Assembly (NCBI GenBank): GCA_029212615.1
Contig: JARGPJ010000004.1
Span: forward strand, 1 to 64,000
Source of the DNA: Verrucomicrobiales bacterium
Lineage (GTDB): Bacteria > Verrucomicrobiota > Verrucomicrobiia > Verrucomicrobiales > DEV007
Direction of reading: 5' to 3'
DNA length: 64,000 nucleotides
Numbering within the stretch: position 1 is the first letter of the stretch; each line of letters opens with the position of its first letter. Below the pieces are notes generated by a model that saw nothing but the letters and a program-made list of their open reading frames with translations, searched no databases and was not told the origin of the DNA. Below are positions 39,515 through 47,764 of the stretch, one piece after another. The translations under genes and the position numbers were made by a program.

Positions 39515-39988
39515 CTAGGATTTCAAAAACGCCTGCAATCGCGCCCGGTTGAATCGCTGTAATATCAAACAAGGGAGATTGGAAAAAACCGCGTAAACAA
39601 TGATGACCATGGCGGCAACCGGCCAGGGATTCCAGATAAGAGTCAGCATGATCCCCGGAATCTGAGCATAATGAGCCGCTTCTCCACGACAGGTTTCAGC
39701 GATAAATTTTCGAAAATACTCAGAATCTTTGTCCGTGAGCCTACCTTTGGCAAATCCATCGAACCAAGGAGCGGCATCAGGAAGGAAATGCTTCCAGCTG
39801 CGAATGCGAAACATGGTTTGATAAGTTTTCCCCTTTTTCTCCCAGGCGCGCTGCCGGAAAAGCGGTGAGCCCGGATCGAAACGATCACGGGGCATCCGGG
39901 TGTAGGCCCATGAAATACCGAGATGAATCGCGGGGATCCCGATGAGATTGAGAAGAATGATCCAATGATAAGCAAGATCAACCAACAT
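39515..39988 (-). CDS. crtO: CrtO-like acyltransferase (glycosyl-carotenoate acyltransferase)
   Basis: This is a small integral membrane protein of 157 residues, the size of Staphylococcus CrtO. Matching blocks are RQRAWEKKGKTYQTMFRIRSWKHFLPDAAPWFDGFAKG near residues 42-80, between N-terminal helices (WIILLNLIGIPAIHLGISWAY) and C-terminal helices (AAMVIIVYAVFSNLPCLIL). The family joins a fatty acid to the sugar of glycosyl-4,4'-diaponeurosporenoate in the last step of staphyloxanthin synthesis. It overlaps crtQ by 11 bp, so translation is coupled. The ATG at 39988 is preferred to the longer frame at 40018, which reaches 41 bp into crtQ. Confidence 0.82.
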   Translation of the reverse strand: MLVDLAYHWIILLNLIGIPAIHLGISWAYTRMPRDRFDPGSPLFRQRAWEKKGKTYQTMFRIRSWKHFLPDAAPWFDGFAKGRLTDKDSEYFRKFIAETCRGEAAHYAQIPGIMLTLIWNPWPVAAMVIIVYAVFSNLPCLILQRFNRARLQAFLKS

Positions 39989-41087
39989 GACGCCCCTTCC
40001 ATTCAACCGCTCCACCATGCTTCCTCCGCTCCAATGCTTTAAAAAAGACCCCCTGGTAAAAAGCGAGGCTTAGCGGAAAGAAGAGAGCATTGAGAACACT
40101 GAATGTTCCTGCGTTCTTCATCAGATAGAATGATTGAATCGCGCTGAGAAAGTAAGTGCCGGCGATCCCGTACAGCACAGCCTTCGAAGCAAGAGGGATG
40201 AATGTCAGGGCGATAACACTCATGATGAGTCCGGAGAGCCAAATCGAAACTCCGATGAGTGCGCTCTTTGGTGTGTTATCTGCCCCGGAGACGAACCCCT
40301 TGCTCCAACCCGCCACAAGATCTTGAAGATTTGTCGGAAACATTCTCATCCATATCGTGCCCCGCCCTAGATAGCACCGGCAGGTGTAACCGGCCTCCGT
40401 CAGAAATCGGGAAAGATGAAAGTTCTCAAGCACTTCACTTTTCACCGGCTCATGACCACCCACTCCTTCGTACTGTTCGCGAGAAAGAAAAAGCACCTGA
40501 CCAAAAAGCCCGATCTGTTTTGCGGACGACCCTCTCATGGTAAAAGCGTTCATCCCCAGAATCATGATGATATTAAAGAAGGCGGAAAGCTGCTCATAAG
40601 AGTGCTTAACGCGATGATGAGGACAGATGGAGTGCACGCTCGACGGATCGTTTGAGAGGTCGGCAATACGAAGCAGCCCCCCCGTCTCGAGCACGGTATC
40701 AGCATCAAGAAAAAGATACCACTCACCGGTGGCAGCATCCGCTCCCTGCTGACAAGCCCACGGTTTGCCGTACCAACCGGGTGCGAGCGCCCCTCCATTG
40801 ATGACGCGGGCGCCATACCGCTCCGCCAGTCCCGCCGTGTCATCAGTTGACTGATCGTCGACAACGATGATTTCATGAGCCGCGAAATCCTGCTCCTTGA
40901 GTGATGGGAGGAGGCGGGAGAGATTCTCCTCCTCATCGCGCGCCGGAATGATGATGGAGATCTTTACGATGGGCTTCGGCGCTCCAGGCGCAAGTGACGG
41001 CACGACCCGGAACCGGGCTGAGATGACCCAGCCAACAACCCAGCATAGGAGGGTGATGAAAAGAAAAATCCAGATGAAAAGATCCAT
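39978..41087 (-). CDS. crtQ: CrtQ-like carotenoid glycosyltransferase (GT2)
   Basis: This is a membrane-bound GT2 family glycosyltransferase of 369 residues. An N-terminal helix (FIWIFLFITLLCWVVGWVI) is followed by the GT-A fold: VKISIIIPARDEEENLSRLLPSL, the VVDDQST nucleotide site, and LFLDADTVLE with the DxD pair. C-terminal membrane helices end with GGAVEWKGRHVG, very like the end of Staphylococcus CrtQ. The enzyme adds a sugar to the carboxylate of a C30 carotenoic acid. It lies 74 bp after crtP on the same strand and overlaps crtO, so all four crt genes probably form one transcript. Confidence 0.88.
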   Translation of the reverse strand: MDLFIWIFLFITLLCWVVGWVISARFRVVPSLAPGAPKPIVKISIIIPARDEEENLSRLLPSLKEQDFAAHEIIVVDDQSTDDTAGLAERYGARVINGGALAPGWYGKPWACQQGADAATGEWYLFLDADTVLETGGLLRIADLSNDPSSVHSICPHHRVKHSYEQLSAFFNIIMILGMNAFTMRGSSAKQIGLFGQVLFLSREQYEGVGGHEPVKSEVLENFHLSRFLTEAGYTCRCYLGRGTIWMRMFPTNLQDLVAGWSKGFVSGADNTPKSALIGVSIWLSGLIMSVIALTFIPLASKAVLYGIAGTYFLSAIQSFYLMKNAGTFSVLNALFFPLSLAFYQGVFFKALERRKHGGAVEWKGRHVG

Positions 41088-41161
41088 AGAAGGTTTCGCT
41101 GGACGTGATTACAAACAGGAAGCACCGGCGGTCTGAACCGATGAAACACCTCGGCCACGTA

Positions 41162-42679
41162 CTAAGACATTTTTGCTTCCTGCTTGAGCACACGATCGGC
41201 GACTTTCTGGCCGCAGAGTACAACCATGGGCATTCCGCCACCGGGATTCACACTGCCGCCGGTGAAAAAGAGATTCCGATACTTCGATGACTGCTTCGGA
41301 GCCTTGAAGGCCTGATTCTTTTTCCAATCACTCACGACTCCGTAGATAGATCCCCGATTGGAGGAGTACATCGACTCGATATCAACCGGCGTGAGGACAT
41401 CTTCAACAACGATATGCTTGCGAAGGTCTGTCAACCCCATGCGCTCGAGCTTGTCGATGACCCGTTCTTTCAAGGCCATGTATTCCTCATGAGTGTGTGG
41501 CTTGTCAGGATTGATTGGCGGAATGTGAGGAAGAATCTTAATATTATCGTGACCCTCCGGTGCTTTCGTGGGATCCGTCCGGGTCGGAGCGACGAGATAG
41601 ATTGTCGGGTCTTCCGGAAGCTCCCCCTTTTGAAAGACGGTATCAAAATGCTTGTTTTGATCCTTCGAGTAGAAAAAGTTATGATGCGCGAGCTGCTCGT
41701 AGATTCGATCGGTGCCCAGATGAATAACAAGCCCGGAACAGGCGGGCTCGAACTTCTCAAGCTTTTTCATGAAAACCGGCGGCTCACTGAGCAGCTTCCG
41801 ATAGGCGGGCAGCACCTCCATATTACAGACAACGTAATCGGCTGCGAGGGTCTCCCCGTTTTTCAGGGTCACGCCTGTCACCTCTTTACCCGCATGATTA
41901 ATCGCTGCAACCTCGCTGTTGAAACGCGTCTGAATCCCGAGATCCGTGACGAGTTGATCGAGGCCGCGAGCCAGATTGTACATTCCCCCCTTCACATACC
42001 AGAGACCGTAGTCGAACTGGATCAGAGACATCATGTTCATGTAGCCGGGAGCATCCTTCGCCGAGGAGCCGACGTACTTGATAAAATATTCAAAAATAAG
42101 ACGGAGGTATTCGTCATCGAATTTGTCGTAAATGGACTCCGACATGGTGTGCCCGTGATCCATTCTAAACATGAGGCGCCACCCATAGTGACGAAGCATT
42201 TCCCAGACATTATCAAGCCCCTTTGCAAAATAACCTTCATCAGTAAGGGCATACTGCTCACGACCGTATTCGAGAAAGGCCTGAAACTGAGCCCAGTTTT
42301 TGTCGATCTCTCCCGGAAGCTTTTCGAGCTCCGTTTTCATGAGGTCCATTTCCTCGTATAGATCGAGGACGAGTCCATCTTCGAAGAAATTCCGCCAATG
42401 CGGGCTCACTGATTCAAGCTGAACATAGTCCTCCATCCTTCTCCCGGCGCGGGCCCAAAGACTTTCGAAAAACTGAGGGAGGGTAAAAATGGAAGGACCG
42501 AGATCAAAGCCGAAGCCGTCTATCTCTTTGAAATTCAGCTTCCCTCCGACCTTCTCATTTTTCTCAACGATCTCGACATCGAAGCCTTCACTACGCAATG
42601 AAACGGCAGCTGACAGCCCTCCGAGACCGGCTCCGACGACGACGACTTTTTTCCCCCCCGGGGAAGCGTTTTCGCTCAT
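41162..42679 (-). CDS. crtP: CrtP-like C30 carotenoid oxygenase (diaponeurosporene/diapolycopene oxidase)
   Basis: This CrtI-family flavoprotein has 505 residues. The Rossmann motif is VVVVGAGLGGLSAAVSL at 11-27, with GFDLGPSIFTLPQFFESLW near 55-75. The C-terminal part reads DKLERMGLTDLRKHI, then SNRGSIYGVVSDWKKN and FFTGGSVNPGGGMPMVVL, matching Staphylococcus CrtP far better than CrtN. CrtP oxidises terminal methyl groups of C30 carotenes to aldehydes. Its start codon overlaps the crtN stop by 4 bp (ATGA), so the two are translationally coupled. The plus-strand aldehyde dehydrogenase gene supplies the next step. Confidence 0.9.
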   Translation of the reverse strand: MSENASPGGKKVVVVGAGLGGLSAAVSLRSEGFDVEIVEKNEKVGGKLNFKEIDGFGFDLGPSIFTLPQFFESLWARAGRRMEDYVQLESVSPHWRNFFEDGLVLDLYEEMDLMKTELEKLPGEIDKNWAQFQAFLEYGREQYALTDEGYFAKGLDNVWEMLRHYGWRLMFRMDHGHTMSESIYDKFDDEYLRLIFEYFIKYVGSSAKDAPGYMNMMSLIQFDYGLWYVKGGMYNLARGLDQLVTDLGIQTRFNSEVAAINHAGKEVTGVTLKNGETLAADYVVCNMEVLPAYRKLLSEPPVFMKKLEKFEPACSGLVIHLGTDRIYEQLAHHNFFYSKDQNKHFDTVFQKGELPEDPTIYLVAPTRTDPTKAPEGHDNIKILPHIPPINPDKPHTHEEYMALKERVIDKLERMGLTDLRKHIVVEDVLTPVDIESMYSSNRGSIYGVVSDWKKNQAFKAPKQSSKYRNLFFTGGSVNPGGGMPMVVLCGQKVADRVLKQEAKMS

Positions 42680-44217
42680 ACAGAAACTTGTGTTTTGGAA
42701 TAAGATAATCCGAAGGAATCGGAAATGAGATTCGACGAAATGCGGGCCGATTCAAAAATAGTCGGCAGCCCACTGCCGGGATGTGTGCCTCCCCCGACGA
42801 GGTAACAGTTCTTAAATTCCTCAAAGCGATTGCGCGGTCTCATGAAGGCAAGCTGGCTGAGGCAGTGTGACAAATTAAAGGTCGCGCCTTTGAAAATATC
42901 GAGCTCGCTCTCCCAGGTCTTCGGCGTGTAAATTTTTTCCACCTCAATGTGCTCTTCGAGATCATCCATTCCAAGGCGCTCGGCGAGAGCGCGCATCGTC
43001 AGATCACGATAGCGGGTCTGCGCCGTTTCCCAGTCGATCTCACCATCGAGGTTCGGCGTGGGAACGAGAACGTAGAGGCTCGATTTCCCCTCGGGCGCAA
43101 GCGTTGGGTCGGTGACACTGGCGTTTCGAAGGTAAAAGGAAATATCAGCTGATTCCCGCCCGGAATTAAAAATTTCGGTGATGTTCTTTTTGTAGTCCTT
43201 CGCAAAGACAATCGTGTGATGGGGAAGGTCGTAGACCTTTTTGACACCGAGATGCATCATAAAAGTCGAACAACTGTATTTCATCGAACTCAACTTTTCG
43301 GCCGTGTACTTTTTCAAGGCCCCGTCGGGGACAAGCTGCGACATTGCCTGGGCGAAATCCGCATTGATAATGACACTGTCGGCAGTGATCTTTTCGCCGT
43401 TCTCAAGTTCCACTCCGGCGACTTTTCTACCGTCAAGAATGAGCTCTTTCACCGGTGTCCCCGTGTGGATGTTCGCCCCGCATTCAGCGGCCGCTTTTCC
43501 AAGTGCTTCGGGAATCTTACTGAGACCGCCAATGGTGTGAAAAATTCCATGCTCGTGCTCCATATAGGAAAGCATCGCAAAAGCGCCCGGGCACTCCCAG
43601 GCTGACATGCCCAGATACTTCGACTGAAACGAAAAAAGAAGGGCCAGCTTATCGTCCGTAAAGTATTTCTTCAGGTTGTCGAAAACAGTCGTCCCGAGTG
43701 AAAGATGCGGCAGCGCCGGCAATAAGGCAGGATCCAGCACTCTTGCAGGATTGGAGAAATCACGCTCAAAAGCGGGGAGTAAGCGATTGAGCCGGGATCT
43801 CTCACGCTCAAGGAAACGATCCATGCCCTCAGACTGACCCGGAAAGAGCCGTTCGATTTCTTTCTTCGTGTCTTCGACGTTGTCACCCGCACGGAAGATC
43901 TCATCATCGTATCGGAGCTCATACATTGGATCGAGCCGGACAAAATCGAGATAGTCCTCTGAGGATTTCCCGGCCTCTGAAAAAATTCGATCGAGAAGCC
44001 CCTTCATCATGAGAAAGGTCGGTCCAATATCGAACTGATACCCTTCGATCTCATGCGCCGCGGTGCGACCTCCGAGACGATCCTGTTTTTCAAAGAGATG
44101 CACCTCGACCCCGCGGCTCGCGAGTAAAAGAGCGCTGGCAACGCCTCCGGGCCCGCCACCGATGATGATCACTTTTTTCCGGCTACTGCCTGACCCATCA
44201 GAATCTGGTCCTCTCAT
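42676..44217 (-). CDS. crtN: CrtN-like C30 carotenoid desaturase
   Basis: This CrtI-family flavoprotein of 513 residues heads the carotenoid operon. It has VIIIGGGPGGVASALLLASRG at 16-36, GYQFDIGPTFLMMKGLLDRIF near 63-83, and the C-terminal CYLVGGGTHPGSGLPTIFESARI. FDIGPTFLMM and the MKYSCSTFMMHLGV stretch resemble Staphylococcus CrtN, which dehydrogenates dehydrosqualene to diaponeurosporene. In bacteria without CrtM the enzyme can start from squalene. No squalene or dehydrosqualene synthase is in the window. It is divergent from the aldehyde dehydrogenase gene with about 170 bp between start codons, a likely two-way promoter. Confidence 0.88.
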   Translation of the reverse strand: MRGPDSDGSGSSRKKVIIIGGGPGGVASALLLASRGVEVHLFEKQDRLGGRTAAHEIEGYQFDIGPTFLMMKGLLDRIFSEAGKSSEDYLDFVRLDPMYELRYDDEIFRAGDNVEDTKKEIERLFPGQSEGMDRFLERERSRLNRLLPAFERDFSNPARVLDPALLPALPHLSLGTTVFDNLKKYFTDDKLALLFSFQSKYLGMSAWECPGAFAMLSYMEHEHGIFHTIGGLSKIPEALGKAAAECGANIHTGTPVKELILDGRKVAGVELENGEKITADSVIINADFAQAMSQLVPDGALKKYTAEKLSSMKYSCSTFMMHLGVKKVYDLPHHTIVFAKDYKKNITEIFNSGRESADISFYLRNASVTDPTLAPEGKSSLYVLVPTPNLDGEIDWETAQTRYRDLTMRALAERLGMDDLEEHIEVEKIYTPKTWESELDIFKGATFNLSHCLSQLAFMRPRNRFEEFKNCYLVGGGTHPGSGLPTIFESARISSNLISDSFGLSYSKTQVSV

Positions 44218-44386
44218 GTTCGCTGAAATGCCTCTCGGATATTTTTCCAGTTTCCCTCATTCTTAAGGTAAAAAGGAATGCTTATTCTTCGATTCAGGAG
44301 TGGTTGAAGTCGACTATTTTTTTCGACGACAGCTCCGTAAAGGGCTATCGATGGGGAGGTTTCCGCTGTTTACGTACTCCTCGCCT

Positions 44387-45775
44387 ATGTCCGCCCCGTT
44401 ACCTGACCCTCACGATTACGATTTGAAAGCGCTTTTGGAAGCTCAACGTGCATATTTCCGTCAGGGCTCGACTCGAAAAGTTGCTTTCCGCAAAGAACGC
44501 CTCCGGGGTCTCGAGAGATTACTGGTTCAACGCAGCGACGATCTGCTGGAGGCGCTACACGCGGATCTTGGGAAGCCCGCGCTGGAAGCCTATGTCTCTG
44601 AAGTCTATTTCAGCCTGGCTGAACTGAGGCTCGTTCTAAAGAAACTGACAACCTGGGCAAAACCAAAACGTGTCGGAAACCCTTTCTATTATTGGCCGGC
44701 ACGAAGCGAAATCAGGAATGAACCGTTCGGTAACGCCCTCATCGTAGCACCGTGGAATTATCCGGTACAACTATCACTCAGCCCCCTCATCGCCGCCGTT
44801 GCCGCAGGAAACACGGTCGTCCTGAAGCCTTCAGAACACGCCCCGGCCTCCTCGGCCATGTTGACCGAAATCATCACGGAAGCCTTCAACCCCCAGCATG
44901 TCGCCGTCGTCGAAGGCGGCCCCGAACTGGGTAAAAAGCTACTGGAACAATCCTTCAACTACTGGTTCTACACCGGAAGTGAACAGGTAGGAAGACTCTA
45001 CGCCGAAGCCGCCGCGAAATCTCTCGCCCCGGTCACCCTGGAACTCGGGGGAAAATGCCCGGTCGTGATTGCAGACGATGCCCCTGTCGAAAGAAGCGTC
45101 GAAAGAATCATGACAACGAAATTTTTCAACGCGGGGCAGACCTGTATTGCCCCCGATTTTGTTCTCGTCCCGAGCCATCGTCACGAAGCCTTCGTCAAAG
45201 CCGCAACGGCCTTTCTAAAATGCGCCTATGCCGAAGAGCCAAAGGAGAACATGGCCAACATCGTGAATGACTCCCACTACAAACGGCTGCAGAAACTCAT
45301 CCCGGTAGAGGCGACCCGCATCGGTGATGACGACGATGAAACGCACTTCATTGCTCCCACCCTAATCCCCTATTCAAACTGGGAATGCCCTGCGATGCAG
45401 GAGGAAATCTTTGGCCCGATTCTACCCATCATTCCCTATCACGATATTGATGAGGAACTTGATCGTCTTAGAAGAATGCCCTCCCCTCTCGCCCTCTATG
45501 TATTTTCGGAGCGGCAGGATTTCCTCGAGGCTGTCGCTTCGAGGATTCAATCCGGTTCAGTCTGTTTCAATGACGTGATCAAACAAGCCACGAACCTCAA
45601 ACTGCCCTTCGGCGGCGTCGGGCACAGCGGGATGGGGCGCTACCGCGGTAAAGCCGGATTCAACACCTTTTCCTACGAACGGGCGATAACGAAACGATGG
45701 TTCTGCAAAGACCCCTTTCTCGTGAAACCGCCATACGCAGACAAGCTCTCCAGGCTGCGAAAGCTAATGAAATAG
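44387..45775 (+). CDS. aldH: class 3-like aldehyde dehydrogenase, AldH of the C30 carotenoid pathway
   Basis: This is an NAD(P)-dependent aldehyde dehydrogenase of 462 residues. Active-site features are ELGGK with Glu219, and FFNAGQTCIAPD with the nucleophile Cys253. Cofactor binding is at APWNYPVQLSLSPLIAAVAAGNTVVLKPSE. GSVCFNDV and the HSGMGRYRGKAGFNTFSYER C-terminal block follow. The sequence resembles ALDH3-type enzymes, including Staphylococcus AldH, which oxidises diaponeurosporenal to the acid. Its position next to crtN-crtP-crtQ-crtO supports that role. The start at 44387 leaves out an upstream stretch that is not conserved. A perfect 7-bp hairpin follows its stop, and the selenoprotein gene starts 33 bp later. 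Confidence 0.88.
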   Translation: MSAPLPDPHDYDLKALLEAQRAYFRQGSTRKVAFRKERLRGLERLLVQRSDDLLEALHADLGKPALEAYVSEVYFSLAELRLVLKKLTTWAKPKRVGNPFYYWPARSEIRNEPFGNALIVAPWNYPVQLSLSPLIAAVAAGNTVVLKPSEHAPASSAMLTEIITEAFNPQHVAVVEGGPELGKKLLEQSFNYWFYTGSEQVGRLYAEAAAKSLAPVTLELGGKCPVVIADDAPVERSVERIMTTKFFNAGQTCIAPDFVLVPSHRHEAFVKAATAFLKCAYAEEPKENMANIVNDSHYKRLQKLIPVEATRIGDDDDETHFIAPTLIPYSNWECPAMQEEIFGPILPIIPYHDIDEELDRLRRMPSPLALYVFSERQDFLEAVASRIQSGSVCFNDVIKQATNLKLPFGGVGHSGMGRYRGKAGFNTFSYERAITKRWFCKDPFLVKPPYADKLSRLRKLMK

Positions 45776-45801
45776 AAACCCATTCAAAATCGCGGGGTTT
45801 C
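45775..45801 (+). other. hairpin between aldH and the deiodinase-like gene
   Basis: GAAACCC (45775-45781) pairs with GGGTTTC (45795-45801) around a 13-nt loop. It begins at the last base of the aldH stop and reaches 8 bp before the ATG of the next gene. With no U-tract it is unlikely to be a full terminator; it may damp ribosome access to the deiodinase-like gene or protect the aldH mRNA end. Confidence 0.4.
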
Positions 45802-45808
45802 AATCCGC

Positions 45809-47167
45809 ATGACAGCATTGAAATTCTGCCTTCTCGCCGCCTTCGGCGTCTCCATCTGCTTTCCCCTTTCCGCTCAGGAGCGGGGTTCAAAGGGAAAGGG
45901 GAAAGGAAGTCCGATGACCCTTCAGGGGGAACCGCTCCCCGATGTCTCCGGATTCGATGAAGAAGGAAACGCTTTTCCCCTCCGGCAAAAACTGAAAGGC
46001 CGGCACGGTGTCATTGTTTTCGGCTGTCTGACATGACCCCCTTTCATGAATAACGTCCCCGGTCTGGAGGCGATCTATCGTGACTACAAAAGCAAAGGCG
46101 TCGATTTTTACTTTATCTACAAATCGCTCGCTCATCCCGAACGTGACGGCCTCGTTCAGCCGGTGACGATCGACGAACGTCTTGCCCACATCAAAAAAGC
46201 TAAAGTGCAGCTAAGCACGACGATCCCCTGGATCGCCGACTCGATGAGCAATGAATTGAAAAATGCGCTCGGGAACCGAAACAACTCGGAGATTGTTGTC
46301 TCACCTGACGGAACCATGGTCGTGGCCCGCGACTGGAGTGACCCTTCGGCGCTTCGACTCGATCTTGAGCGACTCGTCGGAAAAGCAGAGACCTTGACTG
46401 AAGTTACTGATCTCAAGGCTCAAGCGCCCGCTGCCGGAGACGGCCACGCGGCGATTCCACGAGGCATCGTTCCCCGCGTCGAACGTCCTGATTCATCAGA
46501 GCCCCTTATTGTCACCACCAAAGGCGATGAGCCATTCTACTTAAAACTTCGGGCCGAAGCGGAAAAGAGTGTCGCGAGAGAGAGTAAAGGAACGCTGCAT
46601 CTGTCCTTTCAACTCGATCCTATTCACGAAGTTCACTGGAACAACCTCGCCCCTCCCATGAGGTATTCGATCGCGGTTCCCGAAGGGGCAATATTCACCC
46701 CCTCTTCCGGCGAAGCGGCGAAAGTTAGCGCTGCCAAAGCGGACATGGACCCGCGGGAGTTCCTTGTCGAACTCGATCTGAGCACGGTCGAAGCGGGGAC
46801 ACCGATTATCATCTCGGTCGACTACTTCGCCTGCGACGACGCCGACAGATGGTGCAAACCGGTCACCCAGACATTTGAAATCTCTCTCGAAACCGATCGT
46901 GATGCCGGCCGGGTTCAGATACCCGGCGGTGGCCGCGGCGGCACGAAAGGAGGCGGCATGAAGGGCCGTGGAAAAGGATCCGCGGGTCCCGGTCGCGGCA
47001 TGCCAAGTGCTGAAAACATTCTCAGCCGGTTCGACACCAACGAAGATGGTGCCCTGAGCCGCGAAGAAGCGACAGGCCCGATGGCACAACGCTTCGATCA
47101 AATGGACACGAACCGGGATGGCTCCGTCAGCATCGAAGAACTTGAAGCCCGCCTTGCAAGACGTTAG
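45809..47167 (+). CDS. secreted deiodinase-like selenoprotein with DsbD-N-like domain and EF-hands (UGA at 46034 read as Sec)
   Basis: I read this as one 452-residue protein with an in-frame TGA at codon 76 (46034-46036). Before it are a signal peptide (MTALKFCLLAAFGVSICFPLSA) and the start of a thioredoxin-like domain. After it the same frame continues without a stop. The sequence around it, VIVFGCLT-U-PPFMNN, corresponds to the catalytic SCTUPPF region of iodothyronine deiodinases. YKSLAHPERDG (His109) matches their conserved AHPSDG block. Residues about 225-365 resemble the DsbD N-terminal domain, with Cys342 and Cys349. A Gly/Lys-rich linker leads to two EF-hands, DTNEDGALSREE at 409-420 and DTNRDGSVSIEE at 433-444. 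A gene finder that does not know Sec would call two genes, 45809-46036 and 46046-47167. A nonsense mutation or sequencing error is the alternative. Confidence 0.8.
46054..46072 (+). promoter_or_regulatory. candidate bacterial SECIS hairpin
   Basis: A stem of six pairs with small bulges (C54-G72, G55-C71, bulged U56, C57-G70, C58-G69, bulged A68, C59-G67, C60-G66; last two digits of position) closes a five-base loop GGUCU at 46061-46065. The loop begins 24 nt after the UGA, inside the range used for bacterial SECIS elements. As I recall, the E. coli fdhF SECIS also has GGUCU in its loop and a bulged U in the 5' arm. It would recruit SelB and Sec-tRNA. Confidence 0.65.
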
Positions 47168-47176
47168 CCCGCTCTC

Positions 47177-47764
47177 TTAACCGCGAGAACGCTCTAGCAA
47201 AACCATCATCAATGTCGAAAGCATGACACGAAGTTGATCGCCGTCATCAATCGAACCAAGCTGTTCGAGGACAAATTTTCCCTCCCAGAAAGCAGGCTGC
47301 TTTTTCACACGGACCATGACCTCACCCGTATCGATGCACTTGATGAGATAAGTCGGGTTAAAGAAGTAACCGGCAAAGGCACCAATGATCGGCAGCTCAC
47401 CGAAAAAGCTGTCCATCACTTTGACCCATCCGTTTTCCTCGCGAATTTCGAGCTCGGGCGTTTCATGATCGAGAATCTCGTAGTGCGCTTTCCAGATCGA
47501 CCGCATCCCCTTCCGCCGAATCGCCCCGAAGGCTTCGTCATTCGTTGTGAAAAAGGTGTACTTCGCTGAGAAATCGATAATGCGGTCTGCTTTGATTTCA
47601 CAAAGTTTCTCGGTTCGCGTCTCATCCGTGAACACTTCCACTGCCTCCTTGAGCTTGAACATTTTCTGCTTCACATAGCAAACCGTCTCTCCGGCGGCAT
47701 CCGTCACCTTAAGCTGGGGAGCGAGGGCGACAATTTTGAAAGACAACTCGAGGGGGTAATTCAT
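47177..47764 (-). CDS. LURP-one-related / tubby-like fold protein
   Basis: This cytosolic protein has 195 residues. Strand patterns MNYPLELSFKIVALAPQLKVTDAAGETVCYVKQKMFKLKEAVEVFTDE and later DRIIDFSAKYTFFTTNDEAFGAIRRKG resemble the LURP-one-related (LOR, former DUF567) barrel, which shares the tubby/scramblase fold. A hydrophobic helix, FGELPIIGAFAGYFFNPTYLI, near residues 125-145 would be the buried central helix of that fold. Function in bacteria is unknown. The frame opens with a GTG at 47779, but the ATG at 47764 is better placed. It converges on the deiodinase-like gene with only 9 bp between stops. Confidence 0.65.
   Translation of the reverse strand: MNYPLELSFKIVALAPQLKVTDAAGETVCYVKQKMFKLKEAVEVFTDETRTEKLCEIKADRIIDFSAKYTFFTTNDEAFGAIRRKGMRSIWKAHYEILDHETPELEIREENGWVKVMDSFFGELPIIGAFAGYFFNPTYLIKCIDTGEVMVRVKKQPAFWEGKFVLEQLGSIDDGDQLRVMLSTLMMVLLERSRG

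Follow-up and report, generated by a model that had tools for sequence, protein, structure and literature searches.

The question raised by this locus is whether the TGA that interrupts a long frame of the window (the whole stretch of 64,000 nucleotides analysed here, C3:1-64000 of the 4.55 Mb assembly G000, 93.84% complete) ends a protein or encodes selenocysteine (Sec) and, if the latter, what such a protein would do. The frame (frame 1, forward strand) opens at 45809, counts 452 codons, ends with a TAG stop at 47167 and has a single in-frame TGA at 46034-46036, its codon 76, all as given in the preliminary description of the locus. That description had also placed the TGA at the Sec position of a GCLT-U-PPF motif followed by an AHPxxDG block, which holds: the context of codon 76 is VIVFGCLT-U-PPFMNN, then FYFIYKSLAHPERDG, and the block reads AHPERDG. 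With a probability of about 0.9, we consider that the locus encodes a full-length exported selenoprotein in which UGA 76 is read as Sec by means of SelB and a downstream hairpin, and which would act as a thiol/selenol oxidoreductase of the thioredoxin fold. The features of the locus are collected in Table 1.

Table 1. Features of the candidate selenoprotein locus, in positions of the window
Feature	Position	Strand	Basis or remark
Selenoprotein CDS	45809..47167	+	452 residues if UGA = Sec at codon 76, TAG stop; homologues of similar extent
Likely signal peptide, residues 1-23	45809..45877	+	By inspection; predicted helix 2-16, low confidence
Thioredoxin-fold, deiodinase-like domain (Redoxin match, residues 39-172)	45923..46324	+	Pfam, Dio3 alignment, ResA-like fold
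Cys73, proximal Cys of CxxU	46025..46027	+	34/34 members; Asp in 8 distant rows
UGA codon 76, putative selenocysteine	46034..46036	+	Codon in the family: TGA (26 distinct long-form genes), Cys (10), Asp (8 distant rows)
Bacterial SECIS-like hairpin	46054..46072	+	Loop GGUCU at 46061-46065, 24 nt between UGA and loop
Ig-like beta-sandwich domain, ca. residues 230-362	46496..46894	+	AlphaFold; DsbD-alpha-like weakly by sequence
Cys pair C342...C349 of Ig-like domain, end codons included	46832..46855	+	Conservation
EF-hand loop 1 (DTNEDGALSREE)	47033..47068	+	Pfam EF-hand families
EF-hand loop 2 (DTNRDGSVSIEE)	47105..47140	+	Pfam EF-hand families

The in-frame TGA and its counterparts in homologues

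TGA is an ordinary stop codon in this genome region, where it ends three of nine neighbouring ORFs. Five stop-to-stop frames of at least 430 codons with exactly one TGA occur in the window; in four of them the TGA lies within the first 20 codons, ahead of the listed ORF starts, and only the 45809-47167 frame has it in the interior, which indicates more than chance. ORF listings give 46046-47167 alone, a 373-aa piece: an ORF finder unaware of Sec starts the protein after its active site, so that the family is easily missed.

Homologues were searched in four overlapping sets of genomes (188 of the class, 36 relatives, 387 of the phylum and 386 of the order), the class set giving matches in 43 genomes, many of them to EF-hands only, and codon 76 was read from the fetched loci. 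Long forms with the same domain order comprise 28 rows with TGA that correspond to 26 distinct genes including that of the window, with the identical proteins L059 and L022, and likewise L096 and L023, counted once. At exactly codon 76, a further 25 distinct long-form genes have TGA (a full alignment covers 23, with protein identity down to 44%), the sequence being conserved on both sides, and 10 distinct long genes (L024, L027, L056, L062, L067, L119, L120 and L068-L070) have a Cys codon, TGC or TGT. One of these Cys genes is a paralogue from the genome of the window itself (C18:5969-7051, 38% identity). Among shorter, partial or frame-broken relatives, 13 have TGA, L038, L041 and L077 included, and one (L065) has Cys; the copies of G802 (partial, one TGA) and G659 (no stop) were kept outside the codon counts.

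A true stop or a sequencing error, which would leave a gene either broken or restarted at ATG 46046 as a shorter cytoplasmic protein, agrees with what the ORF listings give, but we regard it as extremely improbable and reject both internal restart and error on account of the TGA shared by the 25 further genes, of the conservation on its two sides and of the restart codon itself (codon 80), which is ATG in only 4 of 25 distinct sequences; the third bases after the TGA are moreover under extra constraint (see below).

In eight distant rows (L072-L076 and L093-L095), codon 76 stands for Asp and the motif reads GDLTD, with Asp in place of Cys73 as well. All belong to a single family of the phylum (f69), are 30-39% identical and have frames of 734-848 codons; three of their genomes (G239, G373 and G388) additionally hold a CxxC copy. 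These DxxD relatives apparently represent a non-redox version of the same active site, and Asp at both positions would mean that the fold can do without redox residues. Trp was not seen at codon 76 among the homologue rows read. Decoding of the UGA as Trp, or by near-cognate read-through, has the open frame in its favour and nothing else, and was rejected as hardly any more probable than a stop: the TGA-free long homologues have Cys (10) or Asp (8 distant rows), TGA terminates ORFs nearby, and both Sec machinery genes and a hairpin of SECIS type are present, as detailed in the next section.

In a quick tree of 46 rows, the Sec and Cys labels need 2 changes versus 10.1 when the labels are shuffled, and one branch (SH-aLRT 91, not starred) separates the 10 long Cys rows from all others; several long branches leave the deep part of the tree unsure. 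The Asp rows are absent from this tree, and L105 (runs of N), L038 (frame break), L041 (second TGA) and L077 were left out of it.

The closest relatives with named records, L022 and L023, come from Verrucomicrobiales MAGs in which the neighbouring genes have ca. 60-93% protein identity to those of the window, and L059, whose protein is identical to that of L022, belongs to a genome of the same genus as the window; a host within the Verrucomicrobiota is accordingly very likely. A further long form, L118 of G571, has TGC at the Sec position, retains a SECIS-like hairpin and shows a frame break directly after the codon; either a recent loss of Sec or a faulty assembly would account for it, and it was counted neither as a Sec nor as a Cys gene. 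Three of the Cys forms (L068, L069 and L070, from G388, G239 and G373, respectively) are 888-895 codons long because of an added N-terminal Lcl_C domain, after which the same order of deiodinase-like domain, Cys pair and EF-hands follows. In viral contigs, none of 17 stretches with the pattern proved to be a relative.

Selenocysteine machinery and the hairpin after the UGA

The genome contains selA, selB, selD and a gene for tRNA-Sec (selC). The three protein genes each score above their NCBIfam cut-off (402 bits for selA), and the tRNA-Sec was found both by RF01852 (61.5 bits versus a gathering score of 47) and by ARAGORN, with anticodon TCA. On one strand of C18 are found selD, selA, a TIGR04553-like protein, a PhnC-like ATPase, two PhnE-like permeases and selB, with tRNA-Sec located ca. 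23 kb beyond selD.

The phosphonate-type ABC transporter genes between selB and selA (4218-7700 of L020, i.e. of G000:C18:476000-490000) perhaps have a role in selenium uptake: the substrate-binding protein is barely above the cut-off of TIGR04553, a putative selenate ABC transporter (252 versus 250), and the ATPase and the two permeases are each below their own NCBIfam cut-off. In the same region, selD (L020:9339-10430, minus strand) has one in-frame TGA and on that ground probably encodes a selenoprotein as well. Short deiodinase-like Sec genes with a GSxTU motif occur ca. 2-3 kb from selA in three genomes of one family (L028, L029 and L030, from G020, G003 and G038), a placement which hints that they are connected with selenium metabolism or its regulation.

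SelA is above the cut-off in all 26 genomes with a long TGA gene, the family being matched only in part in G583, G611 and G647 (in the first two near or at contig ends), and is also present in G802 with its partial TGA copy. When the only long copy is free of TGA, SelA occurs in 2 of 8 genomes (G203 and G610) and is lacking in G179, G734, G659 (codon not read), G239, G373 and G388. The difference between 27/0, including the one partial TGA copy, and 2/6 gives a Fisher p of 1.7e-5 with relatedness ignored, against a background of SelA in 9 of 16 same-genus genomes with no homologue match and in 4 of 15 further genomes of the order. Among genomes with shorter or partial TGA forms that were read, 9 of 11 have SelA, the exceptions being G211 and G054 (83% and 75% complete); among 12 more with a shorter match and one TGA by count, the codon being unread, 10 have it, the exceptions being G673 and G663 (53% and 59% complete). 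The genome of the one short Cys form (G192) has no SelA. These counts exclude G475, G363, the genome of L024 and the f69 genomes G249, G273, G300, G321 and G516.

Downstream of the UGA, the nucleotide sequence is conserved at the RNA level. Among 24 aligned Sec genes, the mean third-base entropy reaches its minimum over 342 five-codon windows at codons 83-87. Of 374 degenerate codons, only 84, 85 and 86 have a third base that never changes, even though Pro and Ser alternate at residue 84, and Gly and Ser at residue 85 (L105 and L117 are outside both this analysis and the long-form alignment). These codons fall in a hairpin whose loop reads [GA]GU[CU]U in all 25 distinct sequences compared (L115, with the same 48 nt as L114, was not used), G29 and U30 of this NGU loop being invariant. 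Pairs 22-38, 26-34 and 27-33 never vary, pair 23-37 is UG or UA, pair 24-36 is CG, UG or UA, and pair 25-35 is UA in 14 sequences and unpaired in 11, including the window gene (C-A). RNAalifold returns the same hairpin, without pair 25-35. In register, 92.7% of cells pair, versus 33-71% when slid (50.7% for slide +1). The covariation score of 0.177 is reached by 2 of 500 shuffles, but slide +1 scores higher (0.209). Only one pair has changes on both sides, a number that 318 of 500 shuffles reach as well.

In the bacterial SECIS model outlined in a 2026 review (PMC13188914), the loop has 3-9 nt with G in the first two places and lies 16-37 nt from the UGA; according to the legend of its Fig. 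2, the upper stem has 4-16 bp and the MFE is -7.5 kcal/mol or lower. The loop GGUCU and the spacing of 24 nt agree with this model, and stem and energy are borderline: the upper stem of the window gene has 6 bp including one C-A mismatch, and the stability alone (-6.3 kcal/mol for 42 nt, z +1.09; -11.4 for 52 nt) is not above that of shuffled sequences. The interval 46034-46090, proposed earlier for a SECIS prediction, does contain a hairpin of the bacterial type with constrained third bases, but its stability is unremarkable. The SECIS-like loop is absent from the 10 long Cys genes, and an Rfam scan of 45500-47500 gave two chance matches only. Shorter Sec relatives differ in sequence at this place: one group has CC-AGGUU-GG, and another a stem around CGUGC that by eye changes on both sides, for example CAGGC/GCCUG in L064 versus CAAGC/GCUUG in L063.

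With the sel genes, the exchange of TGA for Cys codons at codon 76 and the conserved hairpin, the candidate selenoprotein of the preliminary description has gained substance, and Sec at this codon is strongly supported, about as well as sequence alone allows.

Domain architecture and active site

The product would begin with a signal peptide, as had been noted before; by inspection, its N-terminus looks like one (K, a hydrophobic stretch, then SAQ). In Pfam, the first domain matches Redoxin (30.9 bits, cut-off 26.6) and passes T4_deiodinase (PF00837) barely, with 27.1 bits versus a cut-off of 27.0; EF-hands are matched at the C-terminal end. The NCBIfam model NF038285 (deiodinase_rel) gives 52.4 bits, below its cut-off of 250. 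Among 34 long members (24 Sec and 10 Cys; matches counted at E 0.1 or better), Redoxin is found in 33, T4_deiodinase in 28 and EF-hands in 30, the four members without EF-hands all being Cys forms, the paralogue of the window's own genome among them. EF-hand-like repeats were seen by eye on the N-terminal side of shorter deiodinase-like genes (L042, L047, L064 and L065), and EF-hands may thus have joined the deiodinase-like fold more than once.

Alignment of the first domain with mouse Dio3 (4tr3, E 1.6e-5) and Dio2 (9h48, E 1.7e-4) places codon 76 on the catalytic position, where the Cys of the crystal chain stands for Sec. The domain shares with DIO1-3 the thioredoxin fold, the Thr-Sec-Pro-Pro-Phe stretch, the AHP and DG of the block and a proximal Cys before Sec. 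That Cys is, however, located at -3 (CxxU) rather than at -2 as in the animal deiodinases (CxU), the position of the deiodinase proton-relay Glu is occupied by Leu, and the multidomain build with a likely signal peptide is particular to the protein described here. Cys73 is invariant in the 34 members, as are Thr75 directly before Sec and the Sec or Cys at 76, which defines the active-site motif as CxxU.

The model of the whole protein has low confidence (pLDDT 59.0), with the first domain mostly at 60-88 and below 50 at 106-118. In the fold search, the modelled first domain resembles ResA-type proteins (TM-score by target of 0.78-0.85 for ResA chains). ResA has a CxxC in which the first Cys is the nucleophile. 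The fold of the N-terminal domain and the spacing of the redox pair by two residues are common to the window protein and to the TlpA/ResA oxidoreductases, but in the former the second position, which aligns with the deiodinase Sec, would itself be Sec. C-terminal domains of DipZ, which occupied the first rows of the whole-protein fold search with 353-370 columns but an rmsd of 14-16, were taken into account for the thioredoxin part alone.

For residues 230-362, folded separately with four sequences, AlphaFold predicted an Ig-like beta-sandwich with a pLDDT of 79.7, in which C342 is conserved in 33 and C349 in all 34 long members; two Sec genes, L114 and L117 (the latter outside the 34), lack part or all of this Cys pair. 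In DsbD, too, the N-terminal domain is a beta-sandwich whose Cys pair comes late, and a DsbD gene is present in the genome, but the profile similarity is weak. PF11412, which describes that domain, matches only 3 of the 34 full-length members at E 0.1 or better, with weak E-values (best 0.042), and 2 of 10 fragments (best E 0.004). Against the genome's own DsbD, hhalign gave E 0.002 with a probability of 14%, and a wider profile gave a match over 35 columns that outscored 99 of 100 shuffles. HMMER gave 4.4 bits, the best of 500 shuffles reaching 3.8. A PDB profile search of the middle domain returned no relative (best E 0.066). Its fold search returned weak Ig-like matches (E 0.009 or worse, TM ca. 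0.3-0.5), with no DsbD N-terminal domain among the 50 matches listed. NEAT heme domains came first in that search, which was not accepted as a sign of heme binding. The likeness to the DsbD N-terminal domain is a weak lead only.

Proposed activity, alternatives and genomic context

According to an account of DIO1 (PMC9141512), the proximal Cys124 becomes bonded to residue 126, Thr125 is essential and Glu156 takes part in a proposed proton relay. That the protein acts on iodinated aromatics as a true reductive deiodinase or dehalogenase would account for the bare pass of PF00837, for the alignment of the active site with Dio3 and Dio2 and for the Thr that precedes Sec in 34 of 34 members. We nevertheless consider it improbable, since residue 107, which by alignment and by spacing from Tyr153 corresponds to Glu156, is Leu in all 34 members; the proximal Cys is moreover at -3, not -2, and no halogen-related gene was noticed by eye among the neighbours. 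Deiodination, which the preliminary description had been careful not to imply, is therefore an unlikely activity, the spacing of the Cys and the change from Glu to Leu bearing out its caution.

There is similarly little chance of a structural, metal-binding or regulatory role for the protein, with Sec used for binding and not for catalysis. EF-hands in 30 of 34 members, the metal binding that the 2026 review mentions as suggested for some other selenoproteins (PMC13188914) and the eight distant relatives with Asp for both Cys73 and Sec76 could be explained in this way, but Cys73 and the Sec or Cys at 76 are kept in all 34 nearer members and EF-hands are missing in four of them.

For the preferred reading, an exported selenoprotein with redox activity, the following scheme is proposed. 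The ribosome would meet the UGA at codon 76, and SelB carrying Sec-tRNA(Sec) would bind the hairpin, with its loop 24 nt downstream, and insert Sec. The product would leave the cytoplasm and act as a thiol/selenol oxidoreductase of the thioredoxin fold, with Sec76 attacking an oxidised substrate (a peroxide, a sulfenic acid, a disulfide or an organic halide) and Cys73 resolving the intermediate as an Se-S bond. The oxidised pair would then be re-reduced from outside, perhaps via Cys342/Cys349 and the DsbD of the genome. A Sec-dependent reductase of thiol or peroxide type is our best guess as to function; the identity of the substrate and an internal electron relay are speculative, and the relay is a weak idea because the Ig-like domain as a DsbD-alpha is just a lead and because two Sec genes are without the full Cys pair. 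The EF-hands probably bind calcium, for stability or for placement.

Deiodinase-like proteins with Sec and with Cys have been in print for bacteria since 2005, in the Sargasso Sea set (PMC1088965), and the table of the 2026 review has a deiodinase-like family (PF00837) with the motif UxxC (PMC13188914). The locus is thus less novel than the preliminary description implied. The main text of that review contains neither the string Verrucomicrob- nor EF-hand in a word search, and a literature search by title and abstract start, which left subscription papers largely outside, gave no description of this Verrucomicrobiota form among the matches listed. The protein resembles the published set in being bacterial and PF00837-like, in having Sec and Cys forms and in its putative bacterial SECIS; as that set is described, it is set apart by CxxU in place of UxxC and by the added Ig-like domain with its Cys pair and EF-hands. 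As judged from domain build and CxxU motif, the subfamily is new within the already known bacterial deiodinase-like selenoproteins. A bolder and rather doubtful reading is that of an unreported, Verrucomicrobiota-centred class of exported selenoenzymes with a reduction arm of their own: a CxxU head of thioredoxin fold, akin to the thyroid-hormone deiodinases, an Ig-like domain whose Cys pair would pass electrons to it, a calcium-binding tail for placement at the cell surface, an NGU-loop SECIS type of its own and, in the same genome, a Cys twin for selenium-poor conditions. The candidate selenoprotein itself had been proposed in the preliminary description, which missed the CxxU motif, the Ig-like Cys pair, the EF-hands, the Cys paralogue and the Asp relatives.

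The family offers natural Sec/Cys pairs of a protein that is probably exported, and in two cases (G000 and G194) both partners share a genome; its 26 genes constitute a comparative set for SECIS recognition in bacteria. The CxxU, CxxC and DxxD versions of one site, side by side, are a clue to the origin of the deiodinase active site among bacterial redoxins.

The gene context gives no function for the selenoprotein. Upstream, 39978-45775 of the window holds two phytoene-desaturase-like genes and a glycosyltransferase-like gene (named by eye) as well as an aldehyde-dehydrogenase-like gene that ends 33 bases before the selenoprotein start. These genes are kept beside L022 and L023 with the exception of the glycosyltransferase, which was seen in part in L023 and not in L022, whose analysed stretches end there; besides the aldehyde dehydrogenase, a LURP-type gene and a sulfatase are kept beside both. 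In 13 other Sec/Cys loci (mostly with ca. 1.4 kb of flank, and with L059, equal to L022, left aside), the aldehyde dehydrogenase occurs in none, the LURP gene was found in L061 alone, and weak sulfatase matches (25-27%) were found in L056, L097 and L099.
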